Positions 29,008-40,045 of a stretch of 52,202 bases of DNA are shown here, piece after piece. Source of the DNA: Acidimicrobiia bacterium (GTDB taxonomy: Bacteria; Actinomycetota; Acidimicrobiia; IMCC26256; JAMXLJ01); assembly GCA_024281095.1 (NCBI GenBank), contig JAMXLJ010000062.1:1-52202 (forward strand), read 5' to 3'. Position numbers and translations under genes: made by a program. A model generated the notes under the pieces. The model was given only the letters and a program-made list of their open reading frames with translations. It had not been told where the DNA came from and ran no database searches. Numbering within the stretch: the first letter of the stretch is position 1; each line of letters opens with the position of its first letter.

Positions 29008-31356
29008 TCACTCGACCGCGCCGTCGGCGCGCAGCTGCTCCTGTTCGTCCGTCGACAGCCCGAGCAGGTCGCCGAGCACCCAGTCGTTGTCCTGCCCGAG
29101 CGTGGGCCCGCTTCGGTCGTAGCCGCTCGGTGCGTTCGACAGTCGAAATCCGTTGCGCTCGTACAGCGTCGGCCCCGTGAAGGGATGGGCGAGCTCGACG
29201 AAGTGCTCGCGTGCGGCGACCTGCGGGTCGAGATGGATATCGCCGAAGTCGGCCACGGGCACCGCTTCGATGCCGGCGTCCTGGAGCAGCGACGCGACCT
29301 CGTCGCGAGACCGCGTACGCGTCCACGCCGCGACCGCGCCCTCCACCTCGTCGATGCGGGCTTTGCGGGCGTCGACAGTGTCGAGCGACGGGTCGTCGAC
29401 GCCGATGATCGACGCGAGACGCTTCCACTCGTCGTCGGCCCATGCCGCGATCGCGACCCAGCGGTCGTCGCCGCGGCAGGGGAACGCGCCGTGCGGCACC
29501 GCCCGCGACGAGCGGTTGCCATCACGCATACCGATGACGCCCTCCCGTTCGTATTCGAGGATCCACGGTGACAGCGTCCAGATGCCGACCTCGACCTGTG
29601 ACAGATCGAGGTACGCGCCCCGGCCGGTGCGCCGTCGGTAGAGCAGCGCGGCGCCGAGTGCCGCCGCGACATAGCGGGGCGCGAGCGAGTCGGTGATCGT
29701 GCCGAACGGGCCGACCGGTTCGCGGTCGGGCCAGCCCGTCAGCCAGTTGTATCCCGACAGCGCGGCACCCTGGCTGCCGAAGCCGGGATAGTCGCGGTGG
29801 GGGCCGGTCTGACCGTTGAGGCACGCGCTGATCATCACGAGGTCCGGCTTGACCTGAGCGAGCGCGTCGTAGTCGAGACCGAAGCCGCGCATGGCGCGCG
29901 GAGCGAAGTTCTCGGCGACCGCGTCCGCCCACTCGACGACGAGCCGGCGCACGAGCTCGACGGCGCGCGGATGCTTGAGGTTGAACGTCACGTTGCGCTT
30001 GTCGACGTTGAGTGCGTCGTACAGCACCGAGCCCTCGAGCCCGTGCGGGTTGTTCGGGCCCAGCGCGTACACACGCAGGAAGTCGGGCCGGCTCTTCGAC
30101 TCGACCCGCAGCACCGTCGCGCCGTGCTCGGCGAAGTACCGAGTCGCGATCGGCCCCGCCGCTCCCGAGCCGAACTCGAGGATGTTCACCCCCGCCCACG
30201 CCCCACCCCCTTCGCTCAGTTGGGACGATTTGCCGGTCAGAGGGCTGGAAATCGTCCCAACTGACGGGATGGTGGAGGGGTCGGTGGAGCCGAGTGCCGG
30301 CGCCGGGTGCTCGGCGCGCGCGGGTGCGGCTTCGCCGTCGGCGCTGCGCACGACGACGAACGAGCGCGGGAAGCGCTCGATGTCCCCGACCGGTCCGAAG
30401 AAGTCGCGCGAGGCGAGCTGTGTGTTCGCGAGCAGCTCGCGGGGCGAGTTGGCCGGGGCGATCATGAGGTTGGTCGCGCACGCGATGTCGTAGAGCTCCT
30501 GCATCGTGTGGCGCGAGAAGTAGTCCGAGAGCGCGACCTCCATGGCTTTGAGGTCTTCGTCGCTCGCCGTGTTGGGGGAGAACTCGTTCCAGTCGCGGTC
30601 GGTCATGACGGCGGCGTCGATGCCGTCGGCGGCGACGAGCTTGGTGAGGGTCTGCAGCGTCGGGACGCGGGCCTTGCCGCCGCGAAGCCCGAACGAGACA
30701 TAGCCGTCGAGGGTGGGCCAGATCTCGCGGGTGCGGCCGATGTTGGCGCCGCGGCGGGTGCCCCGCTCGCCCGTCTTCGGGAAGCTCGAGGGCCCCGACA
30801 TGCTCGCGATGAACACGACTTCCTGCATCGACAGGTCGACGTGCTGCGGCCGGCCCGATGCGAGCGCGGTGATGGCCGCGAACGCGGCCTCGCCGCCGGT
30901 GTGCGCGTACCCCGACGGCTCAGTGCACCGCACGGGCGCGCGGTCGGGGTCGCCGGTGCTGTACATGTTGCCGCTCGAGGCCATGACGCCGAGATCCGAC
31001 GCTCGCCATCCGGCGCGCGGACCGCTCACGCCGAACGGCGTGACGCTGACCCACACCGACTGCGATGCCCGCGCCGGGTCGAGCGCCCATGCACCGGGGA
31101 AGCCGGGCGTGTCGATCACGACGTCGGCCGCGGCCAGCAGCCGCGCGACCGCAGGGTCGTCGTCCGACGCGGCCACGACACTGCGCTTCCCCGCGTTCCA
31201 GGCCGCGAAGCGATGGGGGAGTGTGCGCAGCGGGTCGCCGCTCGGCGGTTCGACCTTGACCACGTCCGCGCCGAGGTCGGCGAGGACCCGGCCCGCGATC
31301 GCGGCGGGCTCGCCGGCCAGGTCGACGACGAACACCCCTTCGAGCAGCGATTGCAT
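29008..31356 (-). CDS. Fused double CaiB/BaiF family (type III) CoA-transferase
   Basis: This 782-residue protein contains two complete CoA-transferase III halves joined by a Ser/Gly/Thr/Pro-rich linker at about 350-395. Each half has the nucleotide-type opening (GRVLADLGADVVKVEPP; GPIATRYFAEHGATVLRVE) and a DLS motif that fits the catalytic Asp (PQHVDLS; AYLDLS). Family members move CoA between acids without free CoA. The DNA of the linker carries a perfect 16-bp inverted repeat (30216-30264). The ATG at 31356 has GGAGGGGAG upstream, and a TGAC-N6-GTCA site lies 32 bp upstream. Confidence 0.92.
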   Translation of the reverse strand: MQSLLEGVFVVDLAGEPAAIAGRVLADLGADVVKVEPPSGDPLRTLPHRFAAWNAGKRSVVAASDDDPAVARLLAAADVVIDTPGFPGAWALDPARASQSVWVSVTPFGVSGPRAGWRASDLGVMASSGNMYSTGDPDRAPVRCTEPSGYAHTGGEAAFAAITALASGRPQHVDLSMQEVVFIASMSGPSSFPKTGERGTRRGANIGRTREIWPTLDGYVSFGLRGGKARVPTLQTLTKLVAADGIDAAVMTDRDWNEFSPNTASDEDLKAMEVALSDYFSRHTMQELYDIACATNLMIAPANSPRELLANTQLASRDFFGPVGDIERFPRSFVVVRSADGEAAPARAEHPAPALGSTDPSTIPSVGTISSPLTGKSSQLSEGGGAWAGVNILEFGSGAAGPIATRYFAEHGATVLRVESKSRPDFLRVYALGPNNPHGLEGSVLYDALNVDKRNVTFNLKHPRAVELVRRLVVEWADAVAENFAPRAMRGFGLDYDALAQVKPDLVMISACLNGQTGPHRDYPGFGSQGAALSGYNWLTGWPDREPVGPFGTITDSLAPRYVAAALGAALLYRRRTGRGAYLDLSQVEVGIWTLSPWILEYEREGVIGMRDGNRSSRAVPHGAFPCRGDDRWVAIAAWADDEWKRLASIIGVDDPSLDTVDARKARIDEVEGAVAAWTRTRSRDEVASLLQDAGIEAVPVADFGDIHLDPQVAAREHFVELAHPFTGPTLYERNGFRLSNAPSGYDRSGPTLGQDNDWVLGDLLGLSTDEQEQLRADGAVE
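30188..30210 (-). other. Possible G-quadruplex tract in CaiB linker
   Basis: On the reverse strand this reads as four G-runs (G5, G4, G3, G5) separated by one to three bases, next to the inverted repeat in the linker. It encodes Gly/Ala/Trp. It fits a G-quadruplex pattern but may simply be a Gly-rich linker. Confidence 0.35.
30216..30264. repeat. Perfect 16-bp inverted repeat inside CDS
   Basis: TCAGTTGGGACGATTT (30216-30231) and AAATCGTCCCAACTGA (30249-30264) are exact reverse complements separated by 17 bases. The element lies in frame in the linker of the double CaiB protein and encodes a Ser/Thr-rich peptide. Its base composition is less GC-rich than the flanks, which suggests an inserted palindromic element. 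Confidence 0.7.
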
Positions 31357-35566: not shown

Positions 35567-36411
35567 CCCTTGAACTCCGTGGGCCGTCGCTCCATGAACG
35601 CGGCGACACCCTCTTTCGAGTCGAGCGTGTGGCTGATCAGCTCGACGTACGTGCCCTCCTCGCGCAGGAACGCCTCGCGGTCGAGTGTGAGCGCGTCGTG
35701 CAGGAGCCGCTTGGACCAGCCGATCGCCTTCGTGGGCCCGGACGCGAGCCGTTCGGCCCATTCCTTCGCCGTGCCCTGGAGCTGGTCGGCCGGCACGACC
35801 TTGTTGACGATGCCGATGCGTTCCGCGTCGGCCGCGCTCAGGTCGTCGCCGAAGAACATGAGCTCCTTCGCCTTGTGCAAGCCGACGAGCCGCGGGAGGA
35901 GATATGCGGCGCCGCCGTCGGGCACGAGGCCGCGGCGCACGAAGACCTGGATCAGTCGCGCGTTCTCGGCTGCGATGACGAGATCAGCCGCGAGTACCAG
36001 CATGGCGCCGCCGCCGGCCGCGGTGCCGTTCACGGCGGCGATGATCGGTTTCTCGCAGTCCTGCATCACCGACATCAGCTGCTGGAAGCCGGCCCGCATC
36101 GTCTGGATGGCGGTGCCGGCGATCATGTCGGGCGCACCCTCGGGCTGGGGCTTGGGATCGGGCCGGACCGCGAGGTCGGCGCCGGTGCAGAAGTGCCGAT
36201 CGCCCGCGGCGGTGAGCACGACGGCGCGCACCGCAACGTCGGCGTGGGCGCCCTTGAAGTGCTCGATCAACCGATCGCGCACGTAGAACGGGATCGCGTT
36301 GCCGCTCTGGGCCCGGTTGATGGTGAGCCAGAGGACTCCATTGTCCAGACGGGCGAGCAGCTCTTCGTCGGCTCGAGCGGCGAAGTCGGTGTCGGTCACG
36401 GGTCTACTCAC
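35560..36411 (-). CDS. Crotonase-fold protein, PaaG-like subgroup
   Basis: This 283-residue crotonase has the CoA-binding oxyanion-hole segments HFCTGADL and NGTAAGGGAML. The two glutamates of enoyl-CoA hydratase are absent: the GGGxE position is Met and the PEI segment is VRR. Instead GLVPDGGAAYLLPRLVG, with its Asp, matches the ring-isomerase PaaG type. Isomerisation of an enoyl-CoA is therefore more likely than hydration (inference). The GTG at 36411 overlaps the ADP-forming ligase stop, and the stop overlaps the Ltp2-like gene. Confidence 0.85.
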   Translation of the reverse strand: MSRPVTDTDFAARADEELLARLDNGVLWLTINRAQSGNAIPFYVRDRLIEHFKGAHADVAVRAVVLTAAGDRHFCTGADLAVRPDPKPQPEGAPDMIAGTAIQTMRAGFQQLMSVMQDCEKPIIAAVNGTAAGGGAMLVLAADLVIAAENARLIQVFVRRGLVPDGGAAYLLPRLVGLHKAKELMFFGDDLSAADAERIGIVNKVVPADQLQGTAKEWAERLASGPTKAIGWSKRLLHDALTLDREAFLREEGTYVELISHTLDSKEGVAAFMERRPTEFKGW

Positions 36412-38645
36412 TTCCTGACGACGAGGGCGTCGAGCGCGACCGCACCGCGCGGTCGTACGACCAGGGGATTGATGTCGAGCTCGGCGATGTCGCCGGCGAG
36501 ATCGAGGGACAGACGCTGCACCTTCGTGATCACGTCGACGAGGGCATCGACGTCGACCGGCTTACGGCCCCGCACACCGGTCAGCAACGGGTACCCCGCG
36601 AGCTCGCGCAGCATACGGTGCGCCTCGTCGCCGTCGAACGGCGGCACGCGGAACGTGACGTCCTTCAGGACCTCGACGAAGATGCCGCCGAGGCCCGCCA
36701 TGACGACCGGGCCGAAGAGCGGATCCTGCGAGACCCCCACGACGGTCTCGACGCCGCCGCTGACGAGCTCGGACACGATCACTCCGTCGAGGCGGACGTG
36801 CTTCCCCCCGGCGCGCTGCGCGCGACGGAGCATCACGTCGTAAGCGGTGCGCACCGCCTTTGCCGAGTCGACGCCGACCTCGACGAGCCCGAGGTCGCTC
36901 TTGTGCAGCAGGTCGGGCGACGAGACCTTCATCACCACGGGGAACTTGAGGCTCTGCGCGGCGCGCACCGCAGCCGCGGCCGACTCGCACAGGATGTCGC
37001 GCGACGGCTTGATGCCGTACGCCTTCAGGAGTTGCTTCGACGCGTGCTCGGAGAGCGCTTCACCCGGCTGCGCCGCCTCCAGGACCTTACGAGCGCGTGT
37101 CGCAGCGGCCAGCGGCTCGGTGGGCGCGTCGTCGAACGGTGACCGGTAGCGCGTGGCGAACGTCCAGTAGTCGAGATAGGCCTTGACCGCTTGAACGCAG
37201 TTGTGAAACGTGCGGAACACCGGCAGCTGCGACGCCAGGAGCACGTCGCGGTAGGCCGGCTCCGTGCCGACGGGCGAACCCCACACGACGAAGATCGGCT
37301 TGTCGGTGGTCTTCGCGACCTCGACGAGATCGCGAGCGAGCGGCATCGACATCGCCTCGAGCGCGCCGGTGATCGGGCAGATCAGGATGTCGACGTTGGG
37401 GTCGGCGATGATCAGGTCGAGGATCTTGCGGCCTGCCGGTCGCATCACCGGCGGGCCGCCGCAGTCGACGGGGTTGCTGACCCGCAGATACTTCGGGATC
37501 AACCCGTCGTGCAACGCCCGCTGCGTCTCCTCGGTGAGCTCCGGGAGCCGCAGGCCCGCGGCGGCCGCCATGTCGGCCATGTGCGCCCCGGTGCCACCGG
37601 AGATCGCATAGATGGCAACCCCTGGTCCTCTGGTCGCGCTCGCAGGCTCGCCGCTCCTGCGAGCGCGCTGCGCACCCTCCGGGCTGCTCCGCTCGCGGCG
37701 CTGCCAGTGCGGGAGGCCGTTGTCGACAGGTCGCGTTCGGGCAAGGGCCGTGGCGGTGTCGAGGAGCTCGTCGAGCCCGTCGACGCGCGTCACACCGAAC
37801 TGACGGAACACAGCCGACACGACGTCGTCCGCGCCGGTGAGATGACCGGTGTGGGCCTTCGCCATCGACCGACCCTCGTCGGTTCGCCCGACCTTCACGA
37901 CGACCATCGGCTTGCGCAGGCGCGCGCAATGGTCGGCCGCGAGCATGAGTGTGCGGCCGTCCTTGAAACCCTCGATGTAGGCCGCGATCACGCCGACTTC
38001 CGGTTGGTCGGCGAAGTAGCGCGCGAAGTCGGCGAACTCGAGGTCGACCTCGTTGCCGGTGGGCGCCCAATGGGTGAGACGGATCCCGATCTCCTGACCC
38101 TGGAACACCGGCCGGCCCTGGTGCCCGCTCTGTGTGATGAGCGCGATCGACGGGCCCGCGAGCTCGTCACGGAAGTCCTCGAACGCGTTGAGGTTGGTGT
38201 TCGGCCCGAGGAGACGCACGTCGCCCGTGCGTACGAGCGCTTCGAGCCGCGCCTCGAGCGCCTCGCCCGTGGCGCCGGTTTCGGAGAAGCCGGCGGCGAA
38301 GATCACCGCGAACTTGGCCTTGCGTTGCAGGACCTCTTCGAACGTGTCGACCGCGGCGCCCGTGAGAATGATGGCGAGATCGATCTCGCCCGGTACGTCG
38401 AAGATCGAGCGGAAGACCTTCGAGCCGTAGATCTCGTCGTGCTCCGGATGCACGGGGAAGAACTCCGAGCCGTGCTTCTCCGACCACGACTTGAACTTTC
38501 GGGTCATCGCCCCGTTCGGCTTGGCGAGGTTCTCCGACGCGCCGATGACTGCAACGGTTTTCGGGTGCAGGAATGCGTCGATGTCCACATCGCGCAACGC
38601 GAGCGGCCGCCCGGAGACGTCGACCACAGCTTCGGATGACGGCAT
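36408..38645 (-). CDS. ADP-forming acyl-CoA ligase (ACD/NDP-forming type)
   Basis: This 745-residue protein fuses the alpha (CoA-binding, ligase-CoA) and beta (ATP-grasp) parts of the ADP-forming acyl-CoA synthetases. It has VAVIGASENLAKPNG at the N-terminus, ALITQSGHQG, the AKAHTGHLTGAD helix and the C-terminal ATP-grasp segment (PVVMKVSSPDLLHKSDLGLV; LAGDIAELDINPLVV). The catalytic His lies in the AKAHTGH loop. About 30 residues (LPHWQRRERSSPE..., near 333-365) are inserted between domains and are encoded by GC-rich palindromic DNA. It is the first gene of a four-gene operon. Confidence 0.9.
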   Translation of the reverse strand: MPSSEAVVDVSGRPLALRDVDIDAFLHPKTVAVIGASENLAKPNGAMTRKFKSWSEKHGSEFFPVHPEHDEIYGSKVFRSIFDVPGEIDLAIILTGAAVDTFEEVLQRKAKFAVIFAAGFSETGATGEALEARLEALVRTGDVRLLGPNTNLNAFEDFRDELAGPSIALITQSGHQGRPVFQGQEIGIRLTHWAPTGNEVDLEFADFARYFADQPEVGVIAAYIEGFKDGRTLMLAADHCARLRKPMVVVKVGRTDEGRSMAKAHTGHLTGADDVVSAVFRQFGVTRVDGLDELLDTATALARTRPVDNGLPHWQRRERSSPEGAQRARRSGEPASATRGPGVAIYAISGGTGAHMADMAAAAGLRLPELTEETQRALHDGLIPKYLRVSNPVDCGGPPVMRPAGRKILDLIIADPNVDILICPITGALEAMSMPLARDLVEVAKTTDKPIFVVWGSPVGTEPAYRDVLLASQLPVFRTFHNCVQAVKAYLDYWTFATRYRSPFDDAPTEPLAAATRARKVLEAAQPGEALSEHASKQLLKAYGIKPSRDILCESAAAAVRAAQSLKFPVVMKVSSPDLLHKSDLGLVEVGVDSAKAVRTAYDVMLRRAQRAGGKHVRLDGVIVSELVSGGVETVVGVSQDPLFGPVVMAGLGGIFVEVLKDVTFRVPPFDGDEAHRMLRELAGYPLLTGVRGRKPVDVDALVDVITKVQRLSLDLAGDIAELDINPLVVRPRGAVALDALVVRK
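37635..37667. repeat. 12-bp inverted repeat inside CDS
   Basis: CGCGCTCGCAGG (37635-37646) and CCTGCGAGCGCG (37656-37667) are exact reverse complements around nine bases. The element lies in the insertion of the ADP-forming ligase and is followed by further GC-rich short palindromes to about 37710. It encodes an Arg/Ser/Glu-rich peptide absent from the core fold. Confidence 0.6.
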
Positions 38646-38827: not shown

Positions 38828-40045
38828 GTGGCGTTGCGCAACATCGTCGTGGTCGGCGCGTCACTCGCGGGGTTGCGAGCGGTCGAGGCCCTGCGTCGCG
38901 AAGGCTACGACGACCGGCTCGTGGTCATCGGCGCCGAGCCGCATTTGCCGTACGACCGACCGCCGCTGTCGAAGGAGTTTCTCGCGGGGGAATGGGAACC
39001 GGAGCAGCTCACGTTGCGCCGGCAGCCCTACGACGACCTCGACGTCGACTGGCGGCTCGGCCGCCGCGCGACCGCGCTCGATCTCGGCGCGCGCGAGCTC
39101 GAGCTGCACGACGGCGAACGCGTCCCGTTCGACGGACTCGTCATCGCGACCGGTGCGACACCGCGCACGCTCGCGGGCACGCCGCCACTGGCGGGTGTGT
39201 TCACGTTGCGGACGCTCGACGACGCGCTCGCCATCCGTGAACTGCTCGAGGGACGCCCGCGCGTCGTCGTGATCGGCGCCGGGTTCATCGGCTCCGAGGT
39301 CGCGGCGACGTGCAAGAGCCGCCGCGGCATCGACGACGTGACGGTGCTCGAGATGTTGCCGCAGCCGTTGGTGCGGGGCGTCGGTCCGGTGATCGGCGAG
39401 GTCATGGGCGAGTTGCACCGCGATCACGGCGTCGACCTGCGCTGCGGCGTCACCGTCGCGGGAATCGAGGGCGACGGACGCGTGGAGCGCGTGCGACTCG
39501 GCGACGGCACCGCGCTCGAGGCCGACCTGGTCGTCGTCGGTGTCGGCGTCGCACCGGAGACGGCTTGGCTCGAGGGCTCCGGGTTGACCATCGACAACGG
39601 TGTCGTCTGTGACGAGACCTGCCTGGCCGCGCCCGGTGTGGTCGCCGCCGGGGACGTCGCGCGGTGGCGCAATCCGCTCTTCGGCGGCGAATTGATGCGC
39701 GTGGAGCACTGGACCAACGCCACCGAGCAGGGTGTCGCGGCCGCGCGGCGGCTGCTCGCCGGCGACCGTGCGGGTGAGCCGTACGCGCCGGTGCCCTTCG
39801 TGTGGTCGGACCAGTACGACCTGAAGATCCAGGTCGTCGGCCACGTTCGCGGCGACGACGAGGTGGCCGTCGTGCACGGGTCGCTCGACGAGCGGCGCTT
39901 CGTCGCACTGTTCGGTCGCGGCGACCGGCTCACCGGTGCGCTCGGGTTCAGCCGGCCGCGGCAATTGATGCAGTACCGCCGGATGCTGGCGGAAGGCACG
40001 AGTTTCGCCGATGCAGTCGCGCACGGGCGCGCGGTGAATGGCTGA
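38828..40045 (+). CDS. FAD-dependent ferredoxin/rubredoxin reductase-like protein
   Basis: This 405-residue pyridine nucleotide-dependent flavoprotein has the FAD motif (VVVGASLAGLRA), the NAD motif (VVVIGAGFIGSEVAA) and the closing ATG/GDVA segment (VVAAGDVARW). The C-terminal ~80 residues are of the reductase-C kind seen with ferredoxin reductases. It probably passes electrons from NAD(P)H to a ferredoxin or P450 system, but neither is in the window. The GTG at 38828 lies behind four tandem repeats. Confidence 0.9.
   Translation: MALRNIVVVGASLAGLRAVEALRREGYDDRLVVIGAEPHLPYDRPPLSKEFLAGEWEPEQLTLRRQPYDDLDVDWRLGRRATALDLGARELELHDGERVPFDGLVIATGATPRTLAGTPPLAGVFTLRTLDDALAIRELLEGRPRVVVIGAGFIGSEVAATCKSRRGIDDVTVLEMLPQPLVRGVGPVIGEVMGELHRDHGVDLRCGVTVAGIEGDGRVERVRLGDGTALEADLVVVGVGVAPETAWLEGSGLTIDNGVVCDETCLAAPGVVAAGDVARWRNPLFGGELMRVEHWTNATEQGVAAARRLLAGDRAGEPYAPVPFVWSDQYDLKIQVVGHVRGDDEVAVVHGSLDERRFVALFGRGDRLTGALGFSRPRQLMQYRRMLAEGTSFADAVAHGRAVNG

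Follow-up and report, generated by a model that had tools for sequence, protein, structure and literature searches.

Ligase gene and its palindromic insert

The stretch of DNA analysed as a whole (the window) comprises 52,202 nucleotides and belongs to a genome of 4.39 Mb in 177 contigs, designated G000. At 36411..38645, its minus strand carries a gene for an ADP-forming acyl-CoA ligase, recognised by Pfam and NCBIfam matches, by relatives of known structure (PDB 8wzu and 9y43) and by the starts of orthologues. The protein contains CoA_binding_2, Succ_CoA_lig, Ligase_CoA and ATP-grasp_5 domains (Pfam). Its start was set at an ATG near the beginnings of orthologous proteins; the reading frame is open up to position 38864. 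Named relatives of the ligase come mostly from metagenome-assembled genomes of Acidimicrobiia.

The otherwise unbroken alignment of orthologous ligases is broken by an in-frame insert of 26 residues, QRRERSSPEGAQRARRSGEPASATRG, which is encoded by the minus strand (37626..37703) directly ahead of GPGVAIYAISGGT. A preliminary description of this DNA had reported an insert of about 30 residues at a domain boundary. The insert and its location stand, and its size is corrected to approximately 26 residues. In the 762-residue reading of the protein, Pfam places the insert between the end of PF13607 (residue 318), a flavodoxin-like CoA-ligase domain, and the start of PF19045 (residue 361). An AlphaFold2 model based on 25 related sequences has a mean pLDDT of 90. 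Its sole long internal stretch of low confidence (pLDDT 49-60) covers residues 320-340, the insert itself corresponding to residues 315-340. According to this model, the insert is predicted to be a disordered loop at the domain joint, as would be expected of a tolerated flexible loop.

At the DNA level, positions 37625..37707 hold a full (type A) copy of a repeated element, which matches the 83-nt consensus from end to end with 92% identity (E 5.5e-28). The element reads in sense on the plus strand and is antisense to the ligase gene. Within it, the perfect 12-bp inverted repeat noticed earlier was located again, with arms at 37635-37646 and 37656-37667 and a 9-nt loop (37635..37667, not assigned to a strand).

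When the 141-bp stretch was shuffled 3000 times with its dinucleotides preserved, four of the shuffles held such an inverted repeat, and shuffling of the whole window gives about 0.9 perfect 12-bp inverted repeats. Since approximately one is expected by chance per 52 kb, the palindrome taken by itself carries modest weight. Folding of the 37-nt hairpin is stronger than that of its shuffles (z -2.5). For the whole 83-nt element, z is -0.4 on one strand and -1.7 on the other, which means no clear excess of folding. The same chance expectation fits a reading in which a linker of a GC-rich genome was extended, in the ordinary way, by lineage-specific Arg/Ser-rich sequence, the palindrome being a by-product of composition. 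The joint also varies among ligase orthologues, and one of them (G020) has an unrelated Arg/Ser-rich extension. This reading is nevertheless scarcely credible, as copies of 70-85 bp dispersed in the genome already refute it, barring misassembly. Because the DNA of the insert is found again elsewhere in G000 (E values down to 1.2e-23, or 3.4e-29 with the consensus as query), we judge the observation at the ligase to be real.

Family of dispersed repeats

When the ligase element was used as query against G000, at least seven further matches were retrieved, the best of them showing 90% identity over 85 bp (contig C15). The matches are 70-85 bp long and 84-96% identical. They lie in unrelated genes as well as between genes, and the search for other genomic copies proposed in the preliminary description has thus yielded both kinds. 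With the consensus as query and E near 1e-5, at least about nine elements are present in G000, the ligase copy included, and at least about 20 in G001, a relative of the same genus.

Several forms of the element can be distinguished. Full form A is GC-rich and has 70-83 bp. Half form B (about 40 bp) has the first 27 bp, that is the 5' half, in common with A, often followed by CCTGCCAACRGC. In form A', a hairpin around GGGATACCC stands in place of two middle bases and the unit is up to about 115 bp long. Conserved ends of the element are (T)CTGGTCGCG and CTCGCCGC. GC-rich stems of the GGGATACCC hairpin module vary among copies yet stay complementary, and the position of the module within the element is constant (L007, L065, L066, L149, L158, L160, L266). 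Clustering was observed as well. On contig C65 of G001, a single intergenic region contains the second half of the element three times in tandem (L148:2024-2226). Clusters of half-elements occur in other genera of the order, namely in G048 (L268) and in G046 (L271), where they are arranged head to tail.

Within one order of Acidimicrobiia, several families contain the element, and its distribution is sporadic: 12 of 100 related genomes, representing 10 of 60 sampled genera, contain a match at 1e-5. In a search of 396 genomes spread over the phylum (1e-6, two candidates scored per genome), only G000 matched and the 395 others gave no match. Collections of plasmid, phage and viral contigs contained no match to the element, nor did Rfam.

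Palindrome in the CaiB linker

The window contains another conspicuous palindrome at 30216..30264 (not assigned to a strand). It has 16-bp arms with the core TTGGGACGATTT ... AAATCGTCCCAA and is located in the linker of a CaiB protein, in which two CoA-transferase family III (CaiB) domains are fused into 782 residues (29008-31356). The fusion is found order-wide with a variable linker. The palindrome belongs to a separate dispersed family. Its 12-bp-arm pattern, TTGGGACGATTT-N17/18-AAATCGTCCCAA, occurs at seven exact places in G000 and at none in either G001 or the reversed control. Spacing in this family is nearly constant (17-18 nt), and loop sequences differ among copies (other copies L072 and L074-L078).

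The CaiB linker and the ligase insert had previously been presented as a pair of cases. This pairing has to be abandoned, as the CaiB palindrome is unrelated in sequence and represents a different family. We also rejected the linker as a second case of the ligase element on grounds of length, since it shows no clear gain. The linker varies naturally in both length and sequence, and relatives have linkers of similar length without the palindrome.

Copies inside genes and their empty sites

Five insertion events (in the ligase, UvrA, CarB and at two sites of DnaE2) came from a DNA search that was blind to both reading frame and genes. Comparison with orthologues, suggested in the preliminary description, showed that the ligase element is missing from 28 of 29 of them; it is present only in G001. 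In 27 orthologues the two domains are joined directly or via a short linker, the extension of G020 being the remaining case. Since site and orientation agree in G000 and G001, the two copies are read as one insertion that preceded the species split. UvrA of G000 contains a full copy that is absent from UvrA of G001. At least one insertion hence took place after the split within the genus, and the element was active at that time.

CarB of G017 has about 50 extra residues that include parts of two copies and are placed between residues 631 and 635 of E. coli CarB. In DnaE2, the error-prone DNA polymerase (NCBIfam), a full copy is found in G011 and, in a second genus, a half copy at a different loop in G001; both insertions are absent from G000 and from 15 other orthologues. 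The half copy, situated in a loop of nearly unchanged length, is the weakest of the five events. With UvrA, DnaE2 and CarB among the hosts, the stress formerly laid on catabolic enzymes is not warranted.

Two more copies were recognised on closer inspection, which covered the UvrA, DnaE2, ligase and CaiB loci only. A long loop in UvrA of G002 can be aligned with A' copies over about 110 bp; the score is 39-46, and shuffles average 18-19 (sd about 3). This is the same loop that harbours the copy in G000, here in another family and with another variant (A'). DnaE2 of G030 contains an A'-like hairpin with the GCGAGCGCGACCA end of the element, inside a linker of variable length. Ligase and CaiB loci, similar in number to those of UvrA and DnaE2, gave no further in-gene copy.

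In G030, a GGGTATCCC hairpin and a related repeat are also located at the N-terminus of DnaE2, either within it or a short way upstream (L238:1333-1510). A match in an SDR-like gene of G000 (contig C133, L063) was judged to be a chance one, its peptide VIAARRAERLEGLA being typical of the SDR family.

Orientation and reading frame

In each of the seven in-gene copies, the element's own strand runs antisense to the host gene. Their predominant reading is GGDRSSPEGAQGARRSGELASAT, and the five events from the DNA search share one frame. The respective peptides are RRERSSPEGAQRARRSGEPASATR, GGDRSSPKGAKGARGSGELASATS (same ligase event in G001), GADRSTPKGAEGARRSGEL, GGDRSGPEGAQGARRSGELASATG, GGRSSPQGAQAARRSSELASATG and WSGELASATG. 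The remaining two frames of the antisense strand are open inside the copies, and in the consensus all six frames are open except for TAG at the very end. The choice of frame is therefore not forced by stop codons. Probability that both orientation and frame are shared by chance is (1/6)^4 = 8e-4 if both are free and (1/3)^4 = 0.012 if orientation is given. The latter figure is safer because intergenic full copies also lean towards the antisense orientation. As to exceptions, UvrA of G002 is read in another frame (NELAGAAN) and UvrA of G000 shifts frame near one end. DnaE2 of G030 ends in the usual ASAT.

A single orientation in all and a single frame in nearly all in-gene copies could be taken to mean that positive selection favours the inserts as functional protein modules, altering for example repair or protein interaction. 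The repeated occurrence in repair genes would agree with this, and Di Nocera et al. suggested a change of activity for such genes. Such a function is highly improbable, given that the host proteins are unrelated, that orthologues of the same function do without the insert and that the ligase insert is predicted to be disordered. We rather suppose that selection for the peptide that does least harm underlies the preferred frame.

Copies between genes

Most copies of the element are found just downstream of stop codons. Half copies mostly begin 0-13 nt past the stop codon and run in sense direction, while full copies in this position are mostly antisense. Relative to the upstream gene, and where one side is clear, about 13 intergenic full copies are antisense and 4 sense. 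The contexts of half and full copies alike were assigned by a simple codon-usage score rather than curated gene calls. Copies in G001 upstream of SDR, aldo/keto reductase, P-II and nitronate monooxygenase-like genes were considered as N-terminal extensions. They need earlier starts of these genes and were counted as intergenic.

The position of both half and full copies past stop codons raises the question whether the main role of the repeat is that of a functional 3'-end element under selection, such as a terminator, an mRNA stabiliser or another REP-like site, in-gene copies being rare misplacements via recombination or gene conversion. Hairpin stems that differ in sequence and stay complementary in one variant fit this explanation too. 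We consider it unlikely on several counts. Inside genes, the element is present in full and far away from the gene ends, UvrA acquired its copy after the species split, the distribution is sporadic and the whole element has no strong fold.

Probable origin of the insert

Taken together, the ligase insert is very probably one copy of a GC-rich palindromic repeat that is non-autonomous and is, or once was, mobile. Some copies of this repeat lie within genes. Because the repeat is open in all frames, an insertion that keeps the frame and falls into a surface loop or a domain joint could survive and add 10-50 residues to the protein. The survivors are antisense to their host genes, and the peptide nearly always read from them, GGDRSSPEGAQGARRSGELASAT, is polar and flexible. 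The element presumably moves by transposition, with the enzyme supplied in trans.

Y1_Tnp (PF01797), the sole transposase family searched, was detected in the control genomes and in neither G000 nor G001. Copies of the element display no clear terminal inverted repeat. Because the flanking linkers evolve fast, the flanks are too diverged to define a target-site duplication. Support is tempered by the small number of events and by the fact that the DnaE2 copy of G030 resides in a linker that varies anyway.

Repair genes as hosts

Three of the five gene-blind events affect uvrA or dnaE2. REPs of other families and in other phyla have been reported inside uvrABCD, recBCD and dnaE2, and chance was doubted as the cause (Di Nocera et al. 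2013, PMC3733652). LexA controls dnaE2, and probably uvrA, in Streptomyces (PMC9380542). A perfect LexA-type box, CGAACN4GTTCG, is present upstream of uvrA in G000 and of dnaE2 in G011, its background over all sequence examined being one per about 33 kb; no such box was found upstream of dnaE2 in G001. With few events at hand, the association of the element with repair genes and LexA is suggestive only, and loops may simply be better tolerated in long proteins with several domains. It has also to be considered whether unrelated palindromic repeats across phyla converge on SOS genes (uvrA, dnaE2) since insertion would occur mainly during the DNA-damage response, when these genes are strongly transcribed and partly single-stranded. 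We regard this as distinctly unlikely.

Comparison with known palindromic repeats

Coding palindromes are a recognised, poorly explained route by which mobile DNA adds peptides to proteins, seen mainly in Rickettsia and other Gram-negative groups. The element described here resembles MITEs with open frames, such as ERIC and Correia, in that these are small non-autonomous repeats whose open frames may be fused to genes (PMC2229807). In ERIC and Correia, terminal inverted repeats are present, mostly together with target-site duplications (PMC2229807); in the Acidimicrobiia copies, a clear terminal inverted repeat is not apparent.

Intragenic GTAG and CGTC REPs (PMC3733652) are similar in the distribution of their copies. 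Those REPs, too, lie mostly just downstream of coding regions, and some are found in genes, where they encode 20-30 residues, uvrA, dnaE2 and other repair genes being prominent hosts. In contrast to them, the Acidimicrobiia element is larger and modular, and its conserved ends bear no GTAG or CGTC tag. Unlike for GTAG REPs, no RAYT (Y1_Tnp) was found in G000 or G001; CGTC-type REPs are likewise without RAYT. Actinomycetota are not among the phyla listed for REPs in that paper (PMC3733652). Since uvrA and dnaE2 are targeted again, the present copies provide an independent data set on why repair genes are favoured.

Rickettsia palindromic elements (RPEs), 100-150 bp long, were described from Rickettsia (Ogata et al. 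2000, 2002, as summarised in PMC10969869 and PMC2229807). Judging from these summaries, the two systems differ in that the Acidimicrobiia element occurs in another phylum and is 70-83 bp long (about 115 bp with the hairpin module), GC-rich and represented by few in-gene copies per genome. The comparison is by description, and no relation in sequence is claimed. As far as RPEs are characterised there, several features are common to both. Short palindromic repeats are inserted in-frame into unrelated genes whose orthologues lack the insert (here the ligase, UvrA, CarB and DnaE2). A conserved peptide is read in one frame in different hosts, in our case in five events and with UvrA of G002 as an exception. 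Both also have intergenic copies and occupy positions tolerated by the protein. A separate family of this kind in GC-rich Acidimicrobiia indicates that the phenomenon is bound neither to shrinking intracellular genomes nor to RAYT transposases.
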